Notes under the pieces: model-generated
What the model was told of the DNA's origin: nothing
What the model saw: the letters and a program-made list of their open reading frames with translations, nothing else
The model's database searches: none
In this document: positions 4,804-24,555 of the stretch, in pieces
How the letters are laid out: the number at the start of each line of letters is the position of its first letter
Numbering within the stretch: position 1 is the stretch's first letter
Translations under genes and position numbers: made by a program
Source of the DNA: a virus
Direction: 5' to 3' (one strand)
DNA: 24,555 nt
Virus record (IMG/VR): IMGVR_UViG_3300037189_023406
Span: 1-24,555 of that record

Positions 4804-4935
4804 TACTTCTTTATCTAACACTAACGGTTTAATATGTTGACGTTGTTTACGAAATCCATATTCGGTTGTGATTTTAGAAAGTGTAATTCCAAATGAGGAA
4901 CAAATTAAAAGAAGACCTATAAATAAATTTAACAT
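4786..4935 (-). CDS. Small hydrophobic protein (49 residues), unknown
   Basis: On the minus strand an ATG at 4935 opens a 49-codon frame to TGA at 4786-4788. The product begins MLNLFIGLLLICSSFGITLS, a hydrophobic signal-anchor or signal peptide, and continues as a basic, polar tail. It is convergent with the preceding plus-strand gene and overlaps its last 18 bases. It fills an otherwise empty interval and its codon use matches the neighbours. A weak AT-rich promoter region precedes it. No family is recognised; with this length a chance ORF cannot be excluded. Confidence 0.45.
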   Translation of the reverse strand: MLNLFIGLLLICSSFGITLSKITTEYGFRKQRQHIKPLVLDKEVLKHHS

Positions 4936-5555: not shown

Positions 5556-6041
5556 TTATTCACTATTTTTACTGCGGTCCCAACGTGCCTCTCTAACTTC
5601 AGGAGATAGTTGAAATTGTTCATCTATAGTGTGCTCAATTTTAACGTATTGAGCTATTTGATGTGTCCTACAATTTTTAAAATAATTATTAACATACCCT
5701 AATATATTGTGTGTGCCGACGGGATTTGCTGAATGAACATAAATTTGTGGTAACGGTATTCCCCTATTCATACTTTCAGCTACAAGAAACTTTGCAGCAT
5801 CTAATCCTGTTTTCTCAGTAATGTTAGAATAATCAATCGTATAATTATTTTTTACATTTGTATAGTATTCAATCATAGCACTATCGCCTAAATCGTGGTC
5901 TAAAGATATAACTTCAAATCTTTCTAAACCATAACGTTTTACTTCCGTCACAAAATCATCGTAGTTCCTTACAACAATCCAATCTTCAGATATAGGCGTT
6001 CTCACGTCATCAAGATATAATCTTTTTTTCTCAGTTTTCAT
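5556..6041 (-). CDS. cREC: receiver-like domain protein predicted to process cyclic phosphates in RNA repair
   Basis: This 161-residue protein has the core of a receiver (CheY-like) fold used outside two-component signalling. Visible signature: RLYLDDVRTP (acidic pair Asp11-Asp12), SLDHDLG (Asp48-His49-Asp50), a TGLDAAKFL helix (78-86) and VHSANPVG (102-109). The cyclic-phosphate-processing receiver (cREC) family has these same blocks. Comparative genomics has linked it to RNA-repair operons, where it is proposed, not proven, to act on 2',3'-cyclic phosphate ends. The context fits: its start overlaps the end of the RNA-ligase gene by 11 bases, and a polynucleotide kinase gene lies upstream. 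The His residues next to the Asp residues are absent from ordinary response regulators and argue for catalysis over phospho-relay. The family call is strong; the activity is inference. Confidence 0.8.
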   Translation of the reverse strand: MKTEKKRLYLDDVRTPISEDWIVVRNYDDFVTEVKRYGLERFEVISLDHDLGDSAMIEYYTNVKNNYTIDYSNITEKTGLDAAKFLVAESMNRGIPLPQIYVHSANPVGTHNILGYVNNYFKNCRTHQIAQYVKIEHTIDEQFQLSPEVREARWDRSKNSE

Positions 6042-7074
6042 CGTTCTTAAATGGTTTTGAATATTTTGGATAAATAGTTTTCCAAATTATATGTTTATAA
6101 TCCTTATTGTCAAACATAGCAAATAAAATAGCAGAGTTAGTGTAACTTAACGCATAATGCGCAAACGTTTTTTTATCTGTTATATTATTTCTTTCTGTAA
6201 TATTTTTAAAAATTAATCGATATTCTAAATCAATCGTTTTAAATTGTTGTTCAAAATGTTCTTTGGTTTCTTTAACCCAATTGTAAAATTCATCAGGAAC
6301 CTTATCAAGTATTTCATCCAACGGTTTACCTTCTTTAACATATTCAAAAATATCTCTATTTGAGATATTTGTTAAAATTTTGTGAAGACGTTTATACTCA
6401 TCACCTTTGATTTTCATACGAAAACCATTTTTAAAACGAATCACATATCCTTCTTTATCCTTGGATATTTCTTCTTTTAATAAATCATAGCCTTCACCCC
6501 AAGTCTTATATGTGGTAACAACTTCAAATCCCGCGTCCTGCGTCCAAAACAAACTACTGTCAGGTATTTCTTCACCTGTTTCAGTATGGAAAGCACCAAG
6601 AACGACTAACTTTTCTTCATTACCATAATCAACAACAATTCTATTTTCAGGATAAATGATTTCAAACAAATACGTATTGTCTTTTCTCCACGCACTTATG
6701 TCATGCCTATCAAGAATTTCTTTTCCTTTAATTGCTTGCGGTGATGTGAAGGAACCACGAGTAGCTAAAATCCATTGATTTTGATAATTAAAAAGAATTC
6801 CTAATGAACCATCCATTTTTTCATAAACAACATAATCTTCATTTGGAATATCTTCAGGTTTATATTCTTCGTAATTAAAAAATTTTTTAAATGGTCTTGC
6901 AACAATCTCACCTTTTGAATTAGTAACTAATCCACGACATTGTATGGTGATTTCGTCCCATAATCTTTCATATTGAACTTTAGGTGAATAATTCCAAATA
7001 GTTAAATCAAGTGTTGGATGTATTTGCTTATGAAGTAAACCATCTTTGTAATATTTTTCTAATGTAGTTAGCAC
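6031..7074 (-). CDS. rnlA-like: RNA ligase, T4 Rnl1 (RnlA) type
   Basis: It joins 5'-phosphate and 3'-OH RNA ends using ATP through a covalent lysyl-AMP. The nucleotidyltransferase motifs are in order in the 347 residues: QCRGLV (45-50), motif I EKMDGS with nucleophile Lys86, a motif III-like FEIIYPENRIVVDY (137-150), motif IV EGYVIRF (208-214) and motif V MKIKGDEY (220-227). A helical C-terminal domain follows, as in T4 Rnl1, which repairs tRNA cut by host anticodon nuclease. The start is GTG at 7074; no in-frame ATG exists upstream before a TAA. An ATG frame at 7141, right after the kinase stop, would join this frame if one A were removed from an A5 run, so the N-terminus could be about 21 residues longer. 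The gene lies between kinase and cREC genes in one operon. Confidence 0.9.
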   Translation of the reverse strand: MLTTLEKYYKDGLLHKQIHPTLDLTIWNYSPKVQYERLWDEITIQCRGLVTNSKGEIVARPFKKFFNYEEYKPEDIPNEDYVVYEKMDGSLGILFNYQNQWILATRGSFTSPQAIKGKEILDRHDISAWRKDNTYLFEIIYPENRIVVDYGNEEKLVVLGAFHTETGEEIPDSSLFWTQDAGFEVVTTYKTWGEGYDLLKEEISKDKEGYVIRFKNGFRMKIKGDEYKRLHKILTNISNRDIFEYVKEGKPLDEILDKVPDEFYNWVKETKEHFEQQFKTIDLEYRLIFKNITERNNITDKKTFAHYALSYTNSAILFAMFDNKDYKHIIWKTIYPKYSKPFKNDEN

Positions 7075-7141
7075 AGTTTTTGATTGGTGTTTTTTGTGGT
7101 GGATTTACCGATTTAATAAAAGATTCGATAAACTGACTCAT

Positions 7142-7567
7142 TTACAATTTGATTTGAAATCTGTCCTTCATTTGCTGAAGTTTATCTTGCGGAACACCGT
7201 GAACATTTTCACCTTCGTGTCTATTTTCAACAATGACGCTATGAATACGATAATTATATCTTTCAGCCATTTCGTAATATTTTTCCATTTCCCATTCTTG
7301 GGTAAATGTATTAGCCACCACAATTTTTGATATTTCATATTTCATTCTTTCAGCACATTTTTCTTGACAAAAATTATGTGCCAATTTTATTTTCGAAGCA
7401 TCAAAATTGTAATTACCCTTTTCATCAATAAAAAAATCGTCGGCAGATAAAACGTGTGAATCGTCAATCGATAAATTGCGCAATATTATTTGACCCAATG
7501 TTGATTTACCTGAACCAGGTAAACCCCTTAATAATATTAAATCCCCTTTGTATATTTTTTCTTCCAT
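7142..7567 (-). CDS. P-loop polynucleotide/RNA 5'-kinase-like protein (AAA_33, N4BP2L-type)
   Basis: In this 141-residue protein the Walker A motif GLPGSGKST is at 15-23. SADDFF at 41-46 offers Asp43/Asp44 for substrate activation, as in T4 Pnk-type kinases. IVVANTF (82-88) forms the strand with the Asn-Thr sensor, and ENRHEGENVHGVP (114-126) matches the NxHGVP lid region of N4BP2-like kinases. Such kinases phosphorylate 5'-OH ends of polynucleotides, which is what the downstream ligase needs. There is no phosphatase domain, unlike T4 Pnkp. It is first in the RNA-repair operon: kinase, ligase, cREC. The start codon lies just after a terminator and T-rich DNA; no clear promoter was found, so expression may rely on read-through from the lipoprotein gene. 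Confidence 0.85.
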   Translation of the reverse strand: MEEKIYKGDLILLRGLPGSGKSTLGQIILRNLSIDDSHVLSADDFFIDEKGNYNFDASKIKLAHNFCQEKCAERMKYEISKIVVANTFTQEWEMEKYYEMAERYNYRIHSVIVENRHEGENVHGVPQDKLQQMKDRFQIKL

Positions 7568-8006: not shown

Positions 8007-10025
8007 TTAAATAACTTTTTTTGCAATAAATAATTTTTCATCCTTAAATTTAATGGTAATTGATTGATTTTCAACAATATTACCTTTTAAAATCTCTTCG
8101 CTTAAGAAATCCTCTAAAAGATTTTGTATGATTCTTTTAAGAGGACGTGCACCATATTCTTCTTGTGAGTTTAATTCAAATACTCTGTTTAATAAAGTTT
8201 TATCAAAATTAATTTTGTATCCTTTTTCTTTTAAACGATTTGATAACTTATCGATTTCAATGGCGATGATTTTTTTCATCGTTTCTTCATTAAGTGCGTT
8301 GAATAAAATAATATCATCGATACGATTTAAAAACTCGGGATTGAATTGTTGCTTCAATGCTTTTTGAATCATTGATTTTCTAACCTCAAGTTGTTCTTCT
8401 TCTTTACCTTTTAAATTAAAGCCGACACCACCACCTAATTCAGATACACGTTTAGCACCAACATTAGATGTCATGATAATAATCGTATTTGTAAAATTAA
8501 CTTTTCTACCAAATGAATCGGTTAAGTGACCTTCATCTAAAATTTGAAGTAAAATATTAAACACGTCTTTGTGTGCTTTTTCAATTTCGTCAAATAACAC
8601 AACGGAGAATGGATTGTTTTTTATCTTCTCAGTTAATTGACCACCTTCATCATATCCAACATAACCCGGAGGTGAACCAATTAATTTAGATACGTTATGT
8701 TTCTCCATGAACTCACTCATATCAACGCGAATGATTTTATCAGGGTCGCCAAATAATAATTCCGCAATTGATTTAGCTAAGAATGTTTTACCAACACCCG
8801 TTGAACCTAAGAATATAAATGAACCAATTGGTTTATTCGCATCTTTAATACCAACGCGATTTCTTCTAATCGCTTTTGATATTGTGGTGATAGCATCATC
8901 TTGACCAATAACCTTAGCTTGTAAAATTTGTTCCATTTTTAAAAGCTTCTCAGTTTCTTTAGCATCCAATTTAGTAATTGGAACACCAGTCATATTAGTG
9001 ATGATAGTATAAACATCATCAACACTAACAGGGGTCTTATTATCTTTTAATGAATCAGCCCACTTTTGTTTTTCAACATCTAATTTAGTGTTAAGCTTTT
9101 TTTCGTCATCGCGTAACTTAGCTGCTTGTTCGTAATTTTGCTTTTTAACGACATCAAGCTTCTTATCCTTAATTTCATCAATTTCTTTTTTTAATTTTTC
9201 AATTGAATCGGGAACACGGCTTGTTACTTTCTTTTCAGAACCCAACTCATCCAAAACATCGATTGCTTTATCAGGGAATTGTCTATCGGTAATATATCTA
9301 CCTGATAATTTGACGATTGTTTGAATAACATCGTCTTGATATAATACCTTATGAAACGTTTCGTAAGATGGTTGTAAATTTTTTAAGATTTCAACCGTTT
9401 CAGCAGCTGTTGGTTCTTGTAAAATAATTTTTTGGAAGCGACGAACTAAAGCAGCATCTTTTTCAATATGTTTTTTGAATTCATCAAACGTTGTTGCACC
9501 AATACATTGTATTTCACCGCGTGCAAGCGCAGGCTTTAATATATTAGCAGCATCCATTGCACCACTTGCATTACCAGCACCAACCATAGTATGTAATTCA
9601 TCGATGAAAACAATTACATTTGGTTCAGCTTGTAATTCATTTAATATTGCTTTAATTCTTTCTTCAAATTGACCACGATATTTTGTTCCTGCAACTAATG
9701 ATGTTAAATCTAAAGAAACTAATCTTTTATCCAAAAGATTGGAAGGACATTCACCCTTTTGAATTAATAACGCAAGCTTTTCAACTAACGCTGATTTACC
9801 AACACCAGCATCACCTACAATAACTGCATTATTTTTTTTCTTACGAGATAAAATTTGCGCAATGCGCTTTACCTCTTTATCTCGGCCAACGACAGGATCA
9901 ATCTTTCCTTCTTCAGCCATTTTGTTTAAGTCGCGAGAAAAGTTATCAAGTATCGGCGTTGATGAGCCTTTTCTAACTTTCTTTGGACTGATGGGTGCAC
10001 CATCATCGAAATAATCTACTGACAT
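8007..10025 (-). CDS. clpC-like: ClpC-like AAA+ unfoldase lacking the Clp N-domain
   Basis: HSP100 unfoldases thread proteins into ClpP or disaggregate them. From the ATG at 10025 the product has 672 residues: a short linker with STPILDNFSRDL (22-33), first AAA+ domain with GDAGVGKSA (71-79) and FIDELH (140-145), a short middle region with a UVR-like segment (298-311), second AAA+ domain with GSTGVGKT (407-414) and VVLFDE (475-480), and sensor-2 GARP (625-628). A VGF loop (534-536) matches the ClpP-docking loop of ClpC, which ClpB lacks. The pair of Clp_N repeats, about 150 residues in host ClpC, is missing, so adaptor or substrate choice must differ. A longer frame from 10097 adds 24 hydrophobic residues, but these only translate the promoter. 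No phage ClpP is seen, so host ClpP is the likely partner. It is transcribed divergently from hsp20. Confidence 0.92.
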   Translation of the reverse strand: MSVDYFDDGAPISPKKVRKGSSTPILDNFSRDLNKMAEEGKIDPVVGRDKEVKRIAQILSRKKKNNAVIVGDAGVGKSALVEKLALLIQKGECPSNLLDKRLVSLDLTSLVAGTKYRGQFEERIKAILNELQAEPNVIVFIDELHTMVGAGNASGAMDAANILKPALARGEIQCIGATTFDEFKKHIEKDAALVRRFQKIILQEPTAAETVEILKNLQPSYETFHKVLYQDDVIQTIVKLSGRYITDRQFPDKAIDVLDELGSEKKVTSRVPDSIEKLKKEIDEIKDKKLDVVKKQNYEQAAKLRDDEKKLNTKLDVEKQKWADSLKDNKTPVSVDDVYTIITNMTGVPITKLDAKETEKLLKMEQILQAKVIGQDDAITTISKAIRRNRVGIKDANKPIGSFIFLGSTGVGKTFLAKSIAELLFGDPDKIIRVDMSEFMEKHNVSKLIGSPPGYVGYDEGGQLTEKIKNNPFSVVLFDEIEKAHKDVFNILLQILDEGHLTDSFGRKVNFTNTIIIMTSNVGAKRVSELGGGVGFNLKGKEEEQLEVRKSMIQKALKQQFNPEFLNRIDDIILFNALNEETMKKIIAIEIDKLSNRLKEKGYKINFDKTLLNRVFELNSQEEYGARPLKRIIQNLLEDFLSEEILKGNIVENQSITIKFKDEKLFIAKKVI

Positions 10026-10048
10026 GTGTTTATAATTTAATGTTGATA

Positions 10049-10079
10049 CAAATATAACAATAATTGTGATAAAAACCAA
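10049..10079 (-). promoter_or_regulatory. Host-type promoter of the clpC-like gene
   Basis: Minus strand: TTG (10077-10079), 20-nt spacer, exact TATATTTG (10049-10056), a full match to TAnnTTTG. The start site near 10042 leaves a leader of about 17 nt to the ATG at 10025. Confidence 0.7.
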
Positions 10080-10084
10080 ACCAA

Positions 10085-10095
10085 GACAAATTGTC
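10085..10095. promoter_or_regulatory. Operator-like inverted repeat 1 (GACAA-A-TTGTC)
   Basis: A perfect 5-bp-arm palindrome lies 5 bp upstream of the -33 box of the clpC-like promoter. It shares GACAAA-N-TGTC with the second copy 31 bp away. Confidence 0.45.
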
Positions 10096-10104
10096 AAAAA
10101 AAAT

Positions 10105-10181: not shown

Positions 10182-10550
10182 ATGATTACATTATTCAAAG
10201 ACCCATTCTTTCAAGGATTTGAAAGCGTGTTTGAAACATCAAAGTTTCTAAAAACTCCTGAAACTAAAGTTCAGAAAACCGAGACCGAATATAAGGTTTC
10301 ATTAAGCGTCCCTGGTTTAACTAAGGACGATTTAAAAATAACAACCAAAGAAGGTGTCTTAACCATTCAATTTGAAAAAGACGAAAAGGATTTGGAACAC
10401 CATTTCATTGGTTCGTTTGTTAAATCATATAATGTTCCTGATGACGTTAAAGAAAAGGATATCATCGGTAAGGTTGAGAACGGTGTGCTTGAATTGGTGC
10501 TACCAATTGATAAGAAGAAGTCATTGGAAAGACTAATTTCGTTGAATTAA
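10182..10550 (+). CDS. hsp20: Small heat-shock protein, Hsp20 / alpha-crystallin family
   Basis: Hsp20 proteins are ATP-independent holdases that keep unfolding proteins soluble. In this 122-residue protein the alpha-crystallin domain covers about 30-109: ETEYKVSLSVPGLTKDDLKI is the classic first part, GVLTIQF the next strand, and NGVLELVLP (100-108) the conserved A-x-x-x-G-V-L end motif, here with Asn. A short tail ends ISLN, which can act as the I-x-I/L oligomer anchor. The N-terminal arm is short. Hsp20 is found in many T4-type phages, often near head genes, where it may help capsid protein folding. Divergent pairing with a ClpC-like unfoldase and shared operator-like sites suggest a joint protein-quality-control response. 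Confidence 0.92.
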   Translation: MITLFKDPFFQGFESVFETSKFLKTPETKVQKTETEYKVSLSVPGLTKDDLKITTKEGVLTIQFEKDEKDLEHHFIGSFVKSYNVPDDVKEKDIIGKVENGVLELVLPIDKKKSLERLISLN

Positions 10551-10634
10551 CAAAATTTTTTAATATTTTTTGCTCAAAATTTTTTTTTACCGAATTTTTT
10601 GTATAAATTTATTACACACCTAAATTATATACAT

Positions 10635-10883
10635 ATGAGTATTAAAAAAGAAAAAATCAACGGAAGGATGATTGATTTGAACATCACATCATCAAGTCTT
10701 AAATCGGCTTCATTCGATTGTTTGACTGAAAAATTAGTTGTTAATTTTAACAACGGCGCATCTTACGAATACAGAAAGGTCCCAACTTTGTTATTCACAA
10801 AGTTCAGATTATCTGAATCGCAAGGTAAGTTTTTCAATCGTTACATTGCAAAGCAATTTAAGTTCAAAAAAGTTTCAAACTAA
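10635..10883 (+). CDS. KTSC-domain protein, copy 1
   Basis: KTSC is a domain of about 60 residues named after its similarity to a lysyl-tRNA synthetase C-terminal part; its function is not known. In this 82-residue protein it shows SSSLKSASFD (19-28), the strand ASYEYRKVP (42-50), LFTKFRLSESQGKFFN (53-68) and IAKQFKFKKV (71-80). The start at 10635 is preferred over the in-frame ATG at 10599 because it makes this protein align end to end with the paralogue downstream (MSIxxExING). It is followed by a terminator, so it can be a single-gene unit. An AT-rich leader of about 80 nt separates it from hsp20, with no clear promoter match. Confidence 0.85.
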   Translation: MSIKKEKINGRMIDLNITSSSLKSASFDCLTEKLVVNFNNGASYEYRKVPTLLFTKFRLSESQGKFFNRYIAKQFKFKKVSN

Positions 10884-10952: not shown

Positions 10953-11198
10953 ATGTCTATTTTATCTGAAGCAATAAATGGTAAAGAAATCTCTGTTACC
11001 ATCAAATCATCTAACATTACGGCCGCCACTTATGACACCGAAGCGGAAACATTAGCAATAACATTTAATACTGGTGGTATTTATGTATATAATAAAGTTC
11101 CTTGGGCGCTATTCACTAAATTTAGAATGGCTGACTCCCAAGGAAAATTCTTTAACGAGAAAATCGCTAAGAATCACGAATATACCAAAGTAAAATGA
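10953..11198 (+). CDS. KTSC-domain protein, copy 2
   Basis: This 81-residue paralogue of the preceding KTSC gene is collinear over its whole length: MSIxxExING start, KSSNITAATYD (18-28), GGIYVYNKVP (41-50), LFTKFRMADSQGKFFN (53-68), IAKNHEYTKV (71-80). The pair is clearly a tandem duplication that has since diverged. Unlike copy 1 it is coupled to the next gene: its stop overlaps the ATG of the nucleotidyltransferase (ATGA, 11195-11198). Copy 2 therefore probably works with that enzyme. The molecular role of KTSC is unknown. Confidence 0.85.
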   Translation: MSILSEAINGKEISVTIKSSNITAATYDTEAETLAITFNTGGIYVYNKVPWALFTKFRMADSQGKFFNEKIAKNHEYTKVK

Positions 11199-16097: not shown

Positions 16098-17879
16098 ATG
16101 AATTCAAAAATAGAACAATTAAAAGAATACGCAAGAATTATTAAAGATACACCATATGCTTTGAAAACATATCTTCAAACATATGACAATACGCAGAAGA
16201 AATACGTTCCAATGGATTTATTTCCTGACCAAATTCAATTGATTGAGGATTACGAAAAGTATAACGAAAATATCACAAGGAAATATAGACAAGCAGGTGT
16301 TACTACAGTAACAGCAGCATGGTTATCAAAAAAATTACAATTAGCAAAACCTGAAAACCCCGAAAGAGTCTTAGTTATTGCGAACAAAAAAGATACTGCA
16401 GTGGAAATGGCTAACAAGATTAGACATTTCTTAGAACAATGGCCAGAATGGTTAAACGTAGGGTTTTCACCTGATAAAAACTCTGAAAGTAGATTTAGAT
16501 TAAACAATGGTTGTGAAGTAAAAGCGGTAGCAACATCTGCGGATGCATTACGTGGTTATACACCAACAGTATTGGTATTTGACGAAGCTGCTTATATTGA
16601 AGCGGGAGAAGATTTTTGGGCGGCGTCTATGGCCTCACTTTCTACGGGAGGTAAAATTATATTAGTATCAACACCGAATGGTTATGACCCGATTTATTAT
16701 GGTGTTTTTGACCAAGCATTACGCGGTATAAATGATTTCCATATTACAGACTTAAGATGGTTTAAAGACCCTCGTTATACCAAAGATTTACGTTGGGTTA
16801 AGTGTAGTGATATTTGTCATTACATGTTAAACAGAGAACAATACAATGATGATGAAGTTGTTATGTATGATTTTGATATTGAAAAATATGAAGAATACAT
16901 GGAACAAGGTTACAAACCATTCTCATCTTGGTTTGAATCAATGTCAAAAAAATTCAAATATGATAGACGTAAGATTGCACAAGAGTTGGAATGTGACTTT
17001 TTAGGTTCGGGTGATGGTGTAATTCCTGGTGAAGTCCAAGAGAACATTGCTAAGAATTTAGTTAGACAACCAAAAGAAAAATATATGCAAGGAACTTTCT
17101 GGCAATGGAAAGAACCAATTCAAGGACATCGTTATATTATGGGTGTCGATGTTAGTAGAGGAGATAGCGAAGACTTTTCATCAATTAACATTGTTGATTT
17201 TGATGATAGAGAACAGGTTGTTGAATATATTGGAAAAATACCTCCTGATGACTTAGCTGCAATTGCATACAAATGGGGAATATTATATGACGCATTTATC
17301 GTTATAGATATCACAGGCGGTATGGGTATCGCAACGTCAAGAAAGTTACAAGAATTAAATTATAAACACCTTTATATTGATGGTGTAAACACACAAAATA
17401 TTTGGGAATACAATAAAAAAGCCATGGAGAAAATCCCTGGTTTAAACTTTAATAATAAAAGAACACAAATTGTTGCAGCATTTGAAGAACAAGTAAGAAA
17501 GGGATTTGCAATTCGTTCTACCAGATTATTAAATGAACTTAACACGTTTGTTTACATAAATGGTAGACCTGATCACATGAAAGGAGCACATGATGATTCA
17601 ATCATGAGTTTATCTATGGCATTGTATGCTGGTGACATGTGTTTCAATCAGTTACAAAAAAATGATGCAAAAAATAAGGCCATGATTGAGTCTTGGGTAT
17701 CATCAGAAAGAACATACGAAGCAAATAAAACCTTTTATTCATACGGAACATCTTTAGACCCAATAGGTTCTATGGCCATGGATGGTGGTGTTAATAACAT
17801 ATTTCATCAAAATAACGACACTCGATTACCACAAGAATCATATAAGGAGTTCGGTTGGTTATTCGGTAGACCAAGATAA
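16098..17879 (+). CDS. 17: Terminase large subunit, T4 gp17-like
   Basis: It is the ATP-driven DNA-packaging motor with headful nuclease, acting at the portal. The 593 residues show an ATPase domain with a Walker A position KYRQAGVTT (62-70), Walker B VLVFDEAA (158-165), and coupling motif STPNG (191-195). The RNase H-like nuclease domain has acidic residues at Asp351 (MGVDVSRGD), Asp404 (VIDITGG) and Asp499/500 (AHDDS). The P-loop lacks the usual Lys before Thr: T4 has GKTT, here GVTT; Lys62 stands five residues before the Gly, as in the deviant motif of lambda-type terminases. Its gene is the first after a terminator and TATTTATA element, with the portal next. No small subunit is recognised. 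Confidence 0.95.
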   Translation: MNSKIEQLKEYARIIKDTPYALKTYLQTYDNTQKKYVPMDLFPDQIQLIEDYEKYNENITRKYRQAGVTTVTAAWLSKKLQLAKPENPERVLVIANKKDTAVEMANKIRHFLEQWPEWLNVGFSPDKNSESRFRLNNGCEVKAVATSADALRGYTPTVLVFDEAAYIEAGEDFWAASMASLSTGGKIILVSTPNGYDPIYYGVFDQALRGINDFHITDLRWFKDPRYTKDLRWVKCSDICHYMLNREQYNDDEVVMYDFDIEKYEEYMEQGYKPFSSWFESMSKKFKYDRRKIAQELECDFLGSGDGVIPGEVQENIAKNLVRQPKEKYMQGTFWQWKEPIQGHRYIMGVDVSRGDSEDFSSINIVDFDDREQVVEYIGKIPPDDLAAIAYKWGILYDAFIVIDITGGMGIATSRKLQELNYKHLYIDGVNTQNIWEYNKKAMEKIPGLNFNNKRTQIVAAFEEQVRKGFAIRSTRLLNELNTFVYINGRPDHMKGAHDDSIMSLSMALYAGDMCFNQLQKNDAKNKAMIESWVSSERTYEANKTFYSYGTSLDPIGSMAMDGGVNNIFHQNNDTRLPQESYKEFGWLFGRPR

Positions 17880-17933: not shown

Positions 17934-19772
17934 ATGGCAGAGCAAAACATGACAGTCTTTCAGAAACTTACCAAGATGTTTGGTTATCCTGGTAAAGTTG
18001 ACCAAGAAAAGTCACCTTCGTTTAATTTTTCAAAAGACGAGTTATTAAAAACAGATAGCAAAGAAGAATATGAAAAGGCCTTGTTACAAGCACAGCAATC
18101 ATCATACATTGCTGACAAATGGACAAAACTTGATCAATCTTTATACAATCAATCGGTTTATTATGAACCAAATAGATTAGCAGCATATTACGATTATGAA
18201 TCAATGGAGTTTACTCCTGAAATTTCAGCGGCGTTAGACATCTATTCAGAAGAATCTACAACGATGTCTGAAAAGGGTGAAATATTAACCATATTTTCGG
18301 ATTCAGATAGAATTAAAACTGAATTGGATGATTTGTTTAATAACAAATTAGACATTAACACAAACTTACAAATGTGGGCTCGTGGTTTATGTAAGTATGG
18401 TGATAATTTTGTTTACTTAAAAATTGACCCTGAAGCAGGTATTGTTGGTGTTCAACAATTACCAAATATTGAAATAGAAAGAATTGAAGGTGCTTCATCA
18501 AAATCACCTGTTCAAAGAGAGATTAAATTACCATCAAGAGAATTACGTTTCCAATGGAAAAATAAAGAAATGGAATTCCAAGCATGGGAAGTTGCTCACT
18601 TTAGATTATTAGGTGACGATAGAAAGTTACCATATGGAACATCAATGTTGGATAAGGTTAGAAGAATTTGGAAACAATTACTTTTAGCTGAAGATGCTAT
18701 GTTAATTTATAGAACAACAAGAGCACCTGAAAGACGTGTGTTTAAAGTGTTTGTGGGTAACATGGATGATAAAGACATCGAACCATATGTTCAACGTGTT
18801 GCGAATAAGTTTAAAAGACAAGCTGTTCCTGATGCTCGTAATGGTCAAGTGGATATGAGATTTAATCAAATGGCGGTAGACCAAGATTATTTCATTCCTG
18901 TTCGTGACCCATCACAATCAAGTCCAATTGAAACTTTAGCAGGCGCTCAAAATTTAGGTGAGATTGCGGACATTGAATATATTCAAAAGAAAATGTTAGC
19001 AGCTCTTCGTATTCCTAAGGCTTTCTTAGGTTTTGAAGAAGTTGTTGGTGATGGTAAGAATCTTGCATTAATGGATATTCGTTTTGCAAGAACAATCAAT
19101 AAAATTCAAAAGTCTTTAATACAAGAGTTAAATAAAGTTGCGTTAATCCATTTATACCTTTTAGGTATGGAAGATGAATTAAACAACTTCCAATTATCTT
19201 TAAGTAATCCATCGACACAATCTGATTTATTAAAAATTGAATCTTGGAAAGAAAAAATAACATTGTATAAAGACGCAACATCTGACCAATCACAAATAGG
19301 TATTTTACCTGTATCACATACATGGGCTAAAAAGAACATTCTTGGATTTAGTGATAACGATGTTATTCTTGATTTACAACAACAACGTCTTGAAAGAGCT
19401 ATCGGATTTGAATTAACGAACACACAAAACATTATTAAACGTTCAGGTGTGTTTGATGAAGTGGATGCTAAATACGGTATACCTGAAGAAGAAAGAGAAA
19501 AGCTTGAAGCATCTGGCCAATTAGGTGGTGAAGCACCTGGTGGTGGAATGGGAGCTATGGGCGGCGGAGCATCAGCACCACCATCACCTGCGGGTGGAGG
19601 AGCGGAACCATTAAGCGAAGGTTACTCTAAACCAAATAAAACGAAGAAATCTAAAATATTAAGTCTATTGGGTGATGAAAGTTCTGAATTTAAAGATTTA
19701 TTTAATATGGAAAAGGCTCAACAGAATATTTATGAGATAGAAACAAAATTAAACGAAATTATAAACGAATAA
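17934..19772 (+). CDS. 20: Portal protein, T4 gp20-like
   Basis: It forms the dodecameric ring through which DNA enters, nucleates the prohead and docks the terminase. The 612 residues carry gp20-type blocks: EFTPEISAALDIYSEEST (about 87-104), LIYRTTRAPERRVFKVFVG in the stem/clip part (about 258-276), and FLGFEEVVGDGKNLALMDIRFAR (about 363-385). It is about 90 residues longer than T4 gp20 because of a C-terminal extension from about 519 on: a Gly/Ala/Pro linker (532-558), a Lys-rich patch and a helical tail. LSE-Gly at 560-563 resembles a prohead-protease site, so the tail may be removed on maturation. The next gene begins 2 nt after its stop. Confidence 0.95.
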   Translation: MAEQNMTVFQKLTKMFGYPGKVDQEKSPSFNFSKDELLKTDSKEEYEKALLQAQQSSYIADKWTKLDQSLYNQSVYYEPNRLAAYYDYESMEFTPEISAALDIYSEESTTMSEKGEILTIFSDSDRIKTELDDLFNNKLDINTNLQMWARGLCKYGDNFVYLKIDPEAGIVGVQQLPNIEIERIEGASSKSPVQREIKLPSRELRFQWKNKEMEFQAWEVAHFRLLGDDRKLPYGTSMLDKVRRIWKQLLLAEDAMLIYRTTRAPERRVFKVFVGNMDDKDIEPYVQRVANKFKRQAVPDARNGQVDMRFNQMAVDQDYFIPVRDPSQSSPIETLAGAQNLGEIADIEYIQKKMLAALRIPKAFLGFEEVVGDGKNLALMDIRFARTINKIQKSLIQELNKVALIHLYLLGMEDELNNFQLSLSNPSTQSDLLKIESWKEKITLYKDATSDQSQIGILPVSHTWAKKNILGFSDNDVILDLQQQRLERAIGFELTNTQNIIKRSGVFDEVDAKYGIPEEEREKLEASGQLGGEAPGGGMGAMGGGASAPPSPAGGGAEPLSEGYSKPNKTKKSKILSLLGDESSEFKDLFNMEKAQQNIYEIETKLNEIINE

Positions 19773-19774
19773 AA

Positions 19775-20521
19775 ATGAATAAATTTGGCATTGTTAAATC
19801 AAAATTGTTAACTAAGTTAACTGAATCTTACGCAAACGAAAATAAGGCGGAGATTAAAGATATTTTAACAACTATAAAGGAAAATAAAGATTTTAAAGAA
19901 ATGTATTTGTTCTATGAAGAAATCGAAAACAAGTATATTGAAGATAAGGATACCGCAAGATTATACGTTGAGGGATTAAATACGTATTTTGGTCAACCAA
20001 TAGGTAATTGGGGTAAACTAAACATGTTTTGTGAATCTTTACATAATAAATTAGGTGATGTTGAAATTGTAACAAACGATTTATATGAAGCATTAGATGT
20101 ATTATCTGAACCTGACAAATTATCCAATATTGAAAAGAAGGTAACCGCAAAAAAGAAATTGGTGGAACATTTATCAACTAAAAAGGAAATTAAAGAATCA
20201 AAAGAAACAACATTAGTTCCAAACGAAAATTTATTAAACGCTGTTTTGGCAAACAATTTTAACGTATTATATTCAAATACACTATCTGAATCGGAAAAAG
20301 ATGAATTGAAAAATATCTTATCAATTTCACACGATGAATTAATAACTAAATCAAACGAATTAGCAGAATCGGTTATTAACCAAGTATCTACACTTTTAAG
20401 TGAATCAAATGATACGGATTTATCCAACAAATTAAAGGCGGTAAAGGATGAGGTGACTCAAATGTCCCCGTCGCGATACAATTACTTTAGATTAAACGAA
20501 TTAAAAAATGGTCTTAATTAA
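19775..20521 (+). CDS. Probable prohead-core or portal-associated helical protein
   Basis: This 248-residue protein is almost wholly helical and Lys/Glu/Asn/Leu-rich, without Cys-based or catalytic motifs. It starts MNKFGIVKSKLLTKLTES, an amphipathic helix ending in an LTE-Ser that fits the prohead-protease pattern (Leu15-Thr16-Glu17). It follows the portal by 2 nt, so it is made together with it, and stands before the gp21/gp22 genes, where T4 carries small core genes 67 and 68. A core or portal-linked role fits; direct homology is not shown. Its stop lies inside a palindromic terminator shared with the convergent bS21 gene. Confidence 0.7.
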   Translation: MNKFGIVKSKLLTKLTESYANENKAEIKDILTTIKENKDFKEMYLFYEEIENKYIEDKDTARLYVEGLNTYFGQPIGNWGKLNMFCESLHNKLGDVEIVTNDLYEALDVLSEPDKLSNIEKKVTAKKKLVEHLSTKKEIKESKETTLVPNENLLNAVLANNFNVLYSNTLSESEKDELKNILSISHDELITKSNELAESVINQVSTLLSESNDTDLSNKLKAVKDEVTQMSPSRYNYFRLNELKNGLN

Positions 20522-20535
20522 GACCATTTCTTTTT
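20506..20535. terminator. Bidirectional terminator shared by convergent genes
   Basis: AAATGGTCTTAATTAAGACC with ATTT (20506-20529) is a perfect 24-bp palindrome with T-rich tracts on either side. Both convergent stop codons (plus 20519-20521, minus 20514-20516) lie in its centre. Confidence 0.85.
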
Positions 20536-20705
20536 TGTTGAATATACACCGCTTTTAGCTTTTGCGTTCTTTTCTTAACTGAAGGTTTTACAAATACTTG
20601 TCTCATCCTTAATTCTTGAACTTGCTTAACTTTTTGAACTTTATTTTTATAAGTTCTTAACGCTGTTTCAATACTTCTTTCTTTAGATAAATCAACGATA
20701 ATCAT
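20514..20705 (-). CDS. rpsU: Phage-encoded ribosomal protein bS21
   Basis: bS21 binds the platform of the 30S subunit next to the 3' end of 16S rRNA. The 63 residues follow the family closely: MIIVDLSKERSIETALRTYK (1-20), KVQKVKQVQELRMRQVF (22-38), KPSVKKRTQK (40-49) and the Bacteroidetes-like end KAVYIQQKRNGLN with Tyr54. In flavobacterial ribosomes, as I recall from structural work, Tyr54 of bS21 helps hold the anti-Shine-Dalgarno tail in a closed position. The length equals a complete bacterial bS21. It is the only minus-strand gene in the head block and is convergent with the core gene. No GGAGG precedes its ATG, although host rpsU genes of this group are said to carry one. Phage bS21 genes are known from environmental phages. 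Identification is strong; the effect on translation is inference. Confidence 0.92.
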   Translation of the reverse strand: MIIVDLSKERSIETALRTYKNKVQKVKQVQELRMRQVFVKPSVKKRTQKLKAVYIQQKRNGLN

Positions 20706-20722
20706 ATTATATAATTATATAA

Positions 20723-20730
20723 CAAAAATA
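20723..20730 (-). promoter_or_regulatory. Possible -7 element of the bS21 gene
   Basis: The minus strand reads TATTTTTG, an exact TAnnTTTG, 17 nt before the ATG at 20705. No TTG is found 17-23 nt upstream, so the promoter is incomplete or activator-dependent. Confidence 0.35.
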
Positions 20731-20807
20731 TAAAAAATTTTTGGAATTCTAAAATATTTTATTTATTTTTTAAATAACACCATAAAATATAATAATATGA
20801 AAAATTA

Positions 20808-21233
20808 ATGAAAACAGGTAAGTATATCCCATTGGGGATTTACAACAATGTAAAAATCGGGTATGGAACAGTAGATTTTAAAAATCTTAAAACAATCTAC
20901 TTAAAACTTAATTCTTGGTTACAACCCGAAATTGAAGATGAAGATTATGACAATCTAATTTTTAAAACAAGAAAACAAATAAAGCAAATTATCTATAATA
21001 TGGGTAATGCCAATTTCAAACAACAATGTATTGTTGATTTGGACATAAGGACCAAAGGTATTAAAATGGAAAAAAGGTCTTTTATGAATTTGGAAATCAC
21101 ATTATATGTTGACAAATTCTTTGATGTTAAGTCAAAAGAAATAAAAACGTTAACAAGAACTATCATGGAAACCGTTGTTGATAATGGTTTAACGGATAAA
21201 AAGCTATTCAATTTTCATAATACTAAAAAATAA
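20808..21233 (+). CDS. Hypothetical protein between bS21 and prohead protease
   Basis: This 141-residue protein is basic and probably alpha/beta: KYIPLGIYNNVKIGYGTVDF at the start, a helical middle with TRKQIKQIIYNMG and strands with IVDLDIRTKGI. There is no signal or span. The start ATG at 20808 overlaps the TAA of a three-codon frame (ATG AAA AAT TAATG from 20797), an odd mini-ORF that may affect initiation. A TATTTATT lies at 20760-20767. It is followed by the gp21-like gene, so a role in head formation is likely by position. Family not recognised. Confidence 0.75.
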   Translation: MKTGKYIPLGIYNNVKIGYGTVDFKNLKTIYLKLNSWLQPEIEDEDYDNLIFKTRKQIKQIIYNMGNANFKQQCIVDLDIRTKGIKMEKRSFMNLEITLYVDKFFDVKSKEIKTLTRTIMETVVDNGLTDKKLFNFHNTKK

Positions 21234-21271: not shown

Positions 21272-21955
21272 ATGAAGATATTAGGACCAAAAGATTCCGG
21301 TCACGGAATATTAATTGAATACGACGCGGGACATGTTTCCGCTGAAGAAAATAAGCATATTCTTAGAGAAGCGAAGGATATAGATTTTTCGCAAGATTTA
21401 ATTTTATACGCAGTTTTACAAAAATATGACACTCCTAATAAGAATGGTAGGATTTATCCTAAACCCATTCTTATGAGGGAGAATGAGAAATATCAATCCG
21501 TAATTAAAAAAGGTGGTGCTCTAAATGAATTAAACCACCCATCCTCATCCCTTATTGATTTAGACCGTGTATCACACTCAATTCTTGAGACTTGGTGGGA
21601 CGGTAAAATGTTAATGGGAAAAATCAAATTATTCACATCACCCGGTTGGAGAAAAATGGGTATTGTATCCACTAAAGGAGACCAAGCTGCAATGTTATTA
21701 ATGAACGGAGCAACTTTAGGTATCTCATCACGTGGTGTCGGTTCTTTAAAGAACGTTAAAGGTGAAAACATTGTTCAAGACGATTATGAATTAGTTTGTT
21801 TTGACTTAGTTTCTTCACCATCAACACCTGGTGCATATGTTTTCCAAGATTTAAAAGATAGGGATCAATATCAAGAATCAGTGCAAGAAAAACCCCAAGA
21901 AGTGGACAAAATGAAAAAATTAATGGGGAAACTTGATAATTTTTTAGGTAAATAA
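21272..21955 (+). CDS. 21: Prohead protease, T4 gp21-like
   Basis: This serine protease of the herpesvirus-assemblin-like fold degrades the scaffold and trims capsid proteins during head maturation. The 227 residues show RIYPKPIL (60-67), the catalytic His in ELNHP (His89), the DRVSH segment (98-102), and the nucleophile Ser in GISSRGVG (150-157; Ser152 or Ser153), then YELVCFDLVSSPS (172-184) typical of the family. The C-terminal 40 residues are charged and probably self-cleaved. Length is close to T4 gp21. It precedes the gp22 and gp23 genes in T4 order. The 13-base end of the gene, AATTTTTTAGGTA, is repeated 20 bp further on. Confidence 0.93.
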   Translation: MKILGPKDSGHGILIEYDAGHVSAEENKHILREAKDIDFSQDLILYAVLQKYDTPNKNGRIYPKPILMRENEKYQSVIKKGGALNELNHPSSSLIDLDRVSHSILETWWDGKMLMGKIKLFTSPGWRKMGIVSTKGDQAAMLLMNGATLGISSRGVGSLKNVKGENIVQDDYELVCFDLVSSPSTPGAYVFQDLKDRDQYQESVQEKPQEVDKMKKLMGKLDNFLGK

Positions 21956-23334: not shown

Positions 23335-24555
23335 ATGGGAGCATTATTAGAATCAGGTATGGTTGGTAACATCGGTCTTAAGCACTTACGTGTTATCAAA
23401 GAAGATACCATCAAAAAATGGGATGACTTAGGATTTTTAGAAGGTCTTGAAGGTCACCAAAAAGATAACATCGCGCAATTATATGAAAACCAAGCGTCTT
23501 ATTTAATCAACGAAGCTGCAACTGCAGATGCGTCTGGTTCTTTCGAGACTGTGGTATTCCCTATCATTCGTCGTGTATTCTCTAAATTATTAGCTAACGA
23601 CTTAGTGTCTGTTCAAGCTATGAACTTACCAATTGGTAAATTATTCTACTTCATTCCTAAAATTCAGGAAAGAAATAGTGGAGACCATTACGGTCCTTAC
23701 ATGGGTGAAAACTCTAACTTTAGTGGAACAAACACATCTAAAGGTGCAGGATATCCTGATACAGCTAAAAGCCTTTACGATCGTTTCTATGAAAATAGTG
23801 ATGATGTAAACCAAGGTCTTTTTGATTACTCAAAAGGAGCTTTCACGCTTAACACTGCAACTGTTGCTGATATCGTTTCATTTGCTACTGGTACTGAAGC
23901 AAGTATCAACCCAATCGCTACTGGTGTAACAGTAAATTCTGTAATATTGAAAGTTACTGGTTTCACAAGTGATGGTGCTGGTAAAATCGCAGGTCCAGAC
24001 GGTAACTTAATGGATACTGAAGAATTTTTAGCTTCTTTAACAGTTGCTTGTTCTCAAATTACAAATAGTAACACTGGTTACACTACAAACTTACCATTCA
24101 ACATTGTAACTCAAAAATATGGTAAAGGTATTGTAGAATACGGTAGCAAGCATACAGGTGCTTACACAACTGGTAAGTATTATGATATTTGTGATCAAAC
24201 AGGAGTAATTTATCTTTCTGTAGATACACAATATTACGATGCAACTGGTTTCCACGGTTATTCAGTAGCAGGTTCAACTTTAGCGGTTGGTGATTTCACA
24301 GTAACTTTCAGAAGTTATGACACATTAGACGGTTACACAGGAACAACTATCTCTGACTTAAAAGTTGGTGATTTCAAAGCTGTTTACAGACAATATGCTG
24401 ACTTAGAATTTGAAGATAAAATCGGTGAGGTTTCTTTCGAATTAGATTCAGTTACTGTATCTGTTACAGAAAGAAAATTAAGAGCACAATGGTCTCCTGA
24501 GTTAGCTCAAGACGTTGCAGCTTTCCACAACATCGATGCTGAAGCTGAATTAACA
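23335..24555 (+). CDS. 23: Major capsid protein, T4 gp23-like (3'-truncated by window)
   Basis: The ATG at 23335 opens a frame of 407 codons without stop to the right edge. gp23 hexamers build the head shell. Family blocks: FPIIRRVFSKLLANDLVSVQAM (75-96, split by the family-typical Arg and Leu residues), LPIGKLFYF (98-106), and near the edge ERKLRAQWSPELAQDVAAFH with DAEAEL. A prohead-protease site is likely at Ile58-Asn59-Glu60 before Ala61, as T4 gp23 loses its first 65 residues. The ELAQD block lies later here than I remember for T4, so the middle Thr/Gly-rich stretch (about 140-340) probably contains an inserted domain. An A-rich leader precedes the ATG 32 nt after gp22; no own TATTTATA is seen. 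Confidence 0.95.
   Translation, partial: MGALLESGMVGNIGLKHLRVIKEDTIKKWDDLGFLEGLEGHQKDNIAQLYENQASYLINEAATADASGSFETVVFPIIRRVFSKLLANDLVSVQAMNLPIGKLFYFIPKIQERNSGDHYGPYMGENSNFSGTNTSKGAGYPDTAKSLYDRFYENSDDVNQGLFDYSKGAFTLNTATVADIVSFATGTEASINPIATGVTVNSVILKVTGFTSDGAGKIAGPDGNLMDTEEFLASLTVACSQITNSNTGYTTNLPFNIVTQKYGKGIVEYGSKHTGAYTTGKYYDICDQTGVIYLSVDTQYYDATGFHGYSVAGSTLAVGDFTVTFRSYDTLDGYTGTTISDLKVGDFKAVYRQYADLEFEDKIGEVSFELDSVTVSVTERKLRAQWSPELAQDVAAFHNIDAEAELT

Follow-up and report, generated by a model that had tools for sequence, protein, structure and literature searches.

Organization of the bS21 Locus

The DNA analyzed here is a virus record of 24,555 bases, which we call the window and to which all positions refer. 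Its minus strand carries a reading frame for the ribosomal protein bS21 (rpsU, positions 20514–20705), which runs from an ATG to a TAA codon and encodes 63 residues with a tyrosine at position 54 (MIIVDLSKERSIETALRTYKNKVQKVKQVQELRMRQVFVKPSVKKRTQKLKAVYIQQKRNGLN). On one side of it, the plus strand encodes a T4-type large terminase (TerL; 16098–17879, PF03237), a gp20-type portal protein (17934–19772, PF07230, E 3.9e-77) and a 248-residue protein ending in LKNGLN, whose gene converges on bS21 (19775–20521). On the other side lie a divergent gene for a 141-residue protein (20808–21233), an S77 prohead protease (21272–21955, PF03420) and a gp23-type major capsid protein that runs off the window (23335–24555, PF07068), all on the plus strand. 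Neither of the two immediate neighbors matched Pfam or PHROG, and each has a homolog in a second viral clade described below (E 1e-14 for the convergent and 1e-30 for the divergent gene). bS21 is therefore alone in being reversed amid a T4-like head block of terminase, portal, protease and capsid genes, as the preliminary description of this DNA had stated.

Sequence comparisons confirmed that the reading frame is a true, full-length bS21 and support its assignment to the Bacteroidia type. It scored 44 bits (43.1 in a separate search) with the Ribosomal_S21 profile (PF01165), whose cut-off is 27, over profile positions 2–52 of 55, and it also matched PHROG 21469, "ribosomal protein S21." A phmmer comparison with the bS21 of Flavobacterium johnsoniae (7jil) gave an E-value of 1.2e-10 and an alignment of residues 1–62 without gaps, a register that places Tyr54 of the window protein on Tyr54 of F. 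johnsoniae, and both the KPSVKKR and KAVYIQ segments are present. The family assignment, the KPSVKKR and KAxYIQ segments and the exact position of the tyrosine had all been proposed earlier, together with an alignment to Flavobacteriia bS21, and the profile match, the phmmer match and the ungapped alignment agree with them. A scan of IMG/VR recovered relatives encoded at 125 viral loci, which excludes a chance reading frame, and we kept 80 of these, with 70–94% identity. Tyr54 is present in 35/35 distinct proteins of this clade and in 67/67 host proteins. The closest cellular matches are nearly all from Bacteroidota, at 53% for Algoriphagus and 47% for Flavobacterium, and similarity alone does not fix the order of the host. 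A Foldseek search of the modeled protein against the PDB returned no match with E ≤ 10, which is uninformative for a 63-residue protein of two helices.

The arrangement is known. Chen et al. (2022; PMC9723584) described 47 freshwater phage genomes with Bacteroidetes hosts, in which bS21 carries Tyr54 or another aromatic residue and is encoded on the opposite strand from the surrounding terminase, portal, protease and capsid genes, with a hypothetical gene on either side, and proposed that the phage protein substitutes into host ribosomes. The window shares with these huge phages a reversed bS21 that is closest to those of Bacteroidetes, Tyr54, the TerL/portal/protease/capsid block and the character of a large T4-like myovirus, and we found no difference in the basic arrangement. 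The phage of the window is thus of a published class, and the finding as first written is not new. Nor does the significance of a phage bS21 in hosts that occlude the anti-Shine-Dalgarno (anti-SD) sequence deserve the words "little explored," as it is discussed both by Chen et al. (2022) and by McNutt et al. (2023; PMC9976891), who linked the phage-encoded protein to the mechanism by which the anti-SD is hidden and speculated on proteases and counter-defense. A more distant precedent is the bS21 of the Pelagibacter phage HTVC008M, which enters Escherichia coli ribosomes (Mizuno et al., 2019; PMC6375957); it is likewise phage-borne, but it comes from a phage of Pelagibacter and was assayed in E. 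coli, whereas the window encodes a protein of Bacteroidota type.

Two Viral Clades and Their Conserved Residues

In a tree of 64 alignment columns, with long branches and no outgroup, the phage proteins formed a clade of their own (99/96) that joined a second viral clade (98/95). The members of the latter (loci L163–L182) are about 44–48% identical to the window bS21. In the two that we checked in detail, L171 and L174, the gene order is protease, small gene, reversed bS21, convergent gene and portal; the portal protein of L174 is 61% identical to that of the window, and its flanking proteins without assigned function are also homologous. Both viral clades have V/I23, K/R27 and Q28, while in cellular bS21 F/Y23 and G27 are each found in 66 of 67 proteins and Q28 never occurs. 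The simplest reading of these sequences is that one old acquisition of bS21 lies behind both viral clades.

Within the clade of the window, Tyr54, K40, R46 and A52 are invariant. The preliminary description had left room for a phage protein that alters the closure of the anti-SD, and a tyrosine that never changes in the clade speaks against an opening of this kind. The gene lies within the head block, bS21 reportedly has an extraribosomal role elsewhere, in the OLE RNP (PMC12054373), and Chen et al. (2022) raised delivery in the virion as an untested idea. If the protein acted in the virion or otherwise away from the ribosome, for instance by binding RNA and being packaged with the head, it would nevertheless need neither Tyr54 nor the conserved C-terminal half that contacts rRNA, and we give such a role hardly any credence.

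The N-terminal half is a different matter. Fixed differences between phage and host proteins fall at residues 8–30 (K/N8, E9, R/K10, T/S14, R17, T18, position 21, Q/L24, Q28, and Q30), V/I23 and K/R27 are nearly fixed, and pure mimicry of the host protein does not account for these differences. The F. johnsoniae protein belongs to the same family and has the same register, Tyr54 and KPSV and KAxYIQ segments, yet it is 44% identical to the phage protein and has G27/T28 where the phage has K27/Q28. Following Chen et al. (2022; PMC9723584), who advanced the same idea, these differences could mean specialized ribosomes, in which a phage-specific N-terminal half near the mRNA path confers a preference for late phage mRNAs beyond the closure of the anti-SD. 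The clustering of the changes at residues 8–30 while Tyr54, K40, R46, and A52 stay invariant would fit such a role, as would the occurrence of V23, K27, and Q28 in both viral clades. We nevertheless regard it as unlikely, though deserving of some weight: we found no start-site signal that sets phage genes apart from host genes, SDs being absent from both, the predicted folds are alike (helices 12–35 and 41–59 in the phage protein, 12–36 and 41–63 in that of Flavobacterium), and the N-terminal divergence may have accumulated by drift during a long period of separate evolution. The notion that the phage-specific K27/Q28 fuses two helices was discarded, as the Flavobacterium protein modeled in the same way also has a single helix at 12–36.

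A Predicted Terminator Shared by bS21 and Its Convergent Neighbor

The bS21 gene and the convergent gene overlap tail to tail by 8 bp (20514–20521), and the stop codon of the antisense gene keeps the same offset in most relatives. The overlap lies inside a palindrome, AAATGGTCTTAATTAAGACCATTT (20506–20529, both strands), which contains the last codons and the stop codons of both genes. A pattern scan called a terminator independently on each strand, at 20503–20532, and the RNA of the palindrome folds into a 13-bp stem of −13.9 kcal/mol with T tracts on both sides. From its GC-containing hairpin, the T tracts on the two strands and its two-sided changes among relatives, we predict that AAATGGTCTTAATTAAGACCATTT is a bidirectional intrinsic terminator shared by the two genes.

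The palindrome is also coding. It encodes NGLN at the C-termini of both window proteins and, across copies, NGL followed by N, S, or D; its arms are paired in 81/81 copies. The glycine codons of bS21 and of its neighbor are paired through their third bases, as T:A in 28 copies and as A:T in 53, with no mixed combination among the 81. Because the switch between the two states is silent in both proteins, the coupling is not accounted for by selection on protein. A tree built from the remaining coding sequence shows five switches of the pair, one independent pair lying on well-supported branches; with that single pair, a formal test for independent compensatory changes was under-powered. Template switching within the hairpin, in which one arm is copied onto the other, could be the source of the pattern. 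The bS21 of Flavobacterium ends in DGLES, and the Gly-Leu pair may therefore be ancestral and have been built into the palindrome later.

Chen et al. (2022) ascribed the conservation of the phage bS21 C-terminus to ribosome function. In the clade of the window this C-terminus is also part of the terminator palindrome, so its conservation is not clean evidence of ribosome function, and the dual-coding terminator could account for it instead or in addition. We found neither the shared terminator nor the locus of the second clade in the main texts of Chen et al. (2022) and McNutt et al. (2023).

Promoter-Like Signals and Timing of Expression

A promoter-like sequence, TATTTTTG, lies 25 nt before the bS21 ATG (20723–20730, minus strand). 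It has the form TAnnTTTG, which resembles the −7 box of Bacteroidetes, and 70 of the 81 bS21 copies have it at −24 to −27. As a motif of the window at large TAnnTTTG had to be dismissed (44 occurrences, 40 expected), and we treat the element before bS21 as a putative promoter, its fixed position being the sole argument for the motif. A second sequence, TATTTATA, occurs at 10 sites in the window against 4.2 expected, nine of which directly precede a gene and lie on its coding strand (396, 1422, 11971, 16087, 17923, 21248, and 22009 on the plus strand, 5530 and 7974 on the minus strand; the remaining site is at 4918, minus strand). This sequence, whose reverse complement equals the T4 late element TATAAATA, is absent before bS21, which has TATTTTTG instead. 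The earlier proposal of a different promoter type for bS21 thus holds insofar as TATTTATA precedes other genes and TATTTTTG precedes this one, and is weakened by the lack of enrichment of TAnnTTTG in the window. In L163–L182, the region upstream of bS21 is a strongly conserved leader, AAAACTTG...TATATTTATTATCATAA, with a promoter-like block unlike that of the window's clade.

The separate timing deduced from this promoter is at odds with published metatranscriptomes, in which the bS21 of sister phages is transcribed late, together with the structural genes (Chen et al., 2022; PMC9723584). Expression of the sister-phage gene at a stage when the phage needs ribosomes also bears on the proposal that phage bS21 is a competitive poison, displacing host bS21 and lowering host translation. 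That proposal draws on the pelagiphage protein, since E. coli ribosomes carrying the tagged form make about 5% of the normal product in vitro (PMC6375957); the combination of pelagiphage and E. coli is, however, a cross-phylum mismatch, and the half of the protein that contacts rRNA is conserved in the phage. We consider a poison very improbable.

Shine-Dalgarno Contrast Between Phage and Host rpsU

In F. johnsoniae, autoregulation of rpsU works through an extended SD: ribosomes without bS21 translate the mRNA best, and replete ones repress it (McNutt et al., 2023; PMC9976891). We calculated duplex energies between the 30 nt before each start codon and the 16S tail ACCUCCUUUCU, which was deduced from the published A1534–U1544 region and from what is generally known of 16S rRNA in Bacteroidota. 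The start region of the window rpsU (20706–20735, minus strand) is SD-less, its best pairing with the tail being +1.5 kcal/mol against a threshold of −13 kcal/mol for a strong SD. The leaders of the 80 relatives behave alike, with a median of +0.9 and a minimum of −6.3 kcal/mol, none reaching −7, and a GC content of about 9%. The 80 cellular rpsU genes closest by similarity gave a median of −10.7 kcal/mol, and all 24 Flavobacteriaceae loci lay between −16.2 and −17.2 kcal/mol; about 0.1–0.2% of host leaders, once shuffled, get as low as −13. Outside the Flavobacteriaceae, a strong SD is missing from 32 of 54 distinct rpsU leaders. The missing SD, host autoregulation and a promoter all go unmentioned in the main text of Chen et al. 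(2022; PMC9723584), and in the main texts of open-licence articles in PubMed Central the contrast between an SD-controlled host rpsU and an SD-free phage rpsU is apparently unreported.

The expectation that phage mRNAs are SD-less was borne out, as pairing of −7 kcal/mol or stronger precedes none of the 26 window genes and 2 of the 191 ORFs that a mechanical call yielded at the clade's loci, compared with 1 of 70 neighboring genes in Flavobacteriaceae; this suits a closed anti-SD. With SD-less genes throughout, the missing SD of rpsU follows the general start style of the phage and may be that default rather than a selected escape. Selected or not, a copy without an SD cannot be driven by the SD-based loop of the host, and phage rpsU could stand outside that loop, with the virus making bS21 free of this brake. 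The bS21 genes of the second viral clade (L163–L182) and of LR756504 are also SD-less. That every phage bS21 gene is so was ruled out by L185 (−9.7) and by LR756501, a 735-kb phage (L188/L190) in which a strong SD (−12.1) precedes the gene for a Tyr54 bS21; in a 30-kb region of LR756501, 21% of ORFs are preceded by an SD, unlike in the window's clade. A 72-kb viral contig encodes a further bS21 (L162:3001–3168) that is 77% identical to that of F. johnsoniae, carries His54 and has no strong SD.

A Model for Phage bS21 in Anti-SD-Occluding Hosts

On balance, we favor the reading that the phage Tyr54 bS21 is made late, enters the 30S subunit and keeps the anti-SD closed, to the benefit of SD-less phage mRNAs, while holding host rpsU low. 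Late expression would parallel that of the sister phages (PMC9723584). Judging from its family membership and the pelagiphage precedent, the protein would enter the host 30S subunit, replacing or adding to host bS21, and its C-terminal helix and Tyr54 would keep the 16S 3′ tail tucked, as the invariance of this residue and F. johnsoniae genetics suggest. Ribosomes closed in this way should start well on SD-less phage mRNAs, and phage rpsU, with no SD and a promoter region of its own, would stay on when ribosomes are replete; replete ribosomes would hold host rpsU low, given the published behavior of that gene and the SD contrast. A pocket for the anti-SD made up entirely of phage proteins was rejected, as we found one bS21 each and neither bS18 nor bS6 in five contigs of the clade (up to 335 kb), so host bS18 and bS6 would complete the pocket. 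Against the model we count that the window has no proven host, that some Bacteroidota rpsU genes are without a strong SD, that the bS21 gene of LR756501 has one, that the SD-less leader may be no more than the usual start style of the phage, that pelagiphage bS21 lowered the activity of E. coli ribosomes to about 5% (PMC6375957), and that the N-terminal half departs from host proteins at many fixed positions.

A stronger version, which we think doubtful but worth stating, is that the phage frees the anti-SD lock from its feedback control, so that closed ribosomes shut off the SD-dependent host rpsU and phage bS21 progressively replaces that of the host. Experiments are feasible in F. johnsoniae, where SD recognition by the ribosome is under the control of bS21 and rpsU serves as a reporter gene, and an SD-controlled host rpsU set against SD-free phage genes provides a simple test of the action of phage bS21.

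Several other genes of the window merit a note. A Clp ATPase with two AAA domains (8007–10097, minus strand) contains a GGGVGFN stretch resembling a ClpP-binding loop and adjoins an Hsp20 gene (10182–10550, plus strand), and ClpP is encoded in relatives of 335 and 217 kb. These genes could bear on the idea of McNutt et al. (2023) that phages drive the removal of host bS21; that phage ClpP and the Clp ATPase speed replacement in this way is pure speculation. An RNA-repair-like cassette (5556–7567, minus strand) comprises a T4 Rnl1-type RNA ligase (PF09511), a cyclic-phosphate-processing receiver domain (PF20274) and a P-loop kinase (PF13671), and possibly serves tRNA repair against anticodon nucleases. 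Finally, two similar small genes lie in tandem on the plus strand (10599–10883 and 10953–11198), the first encoding a KTSC domain (PF13619) and the second resembling its paralog.
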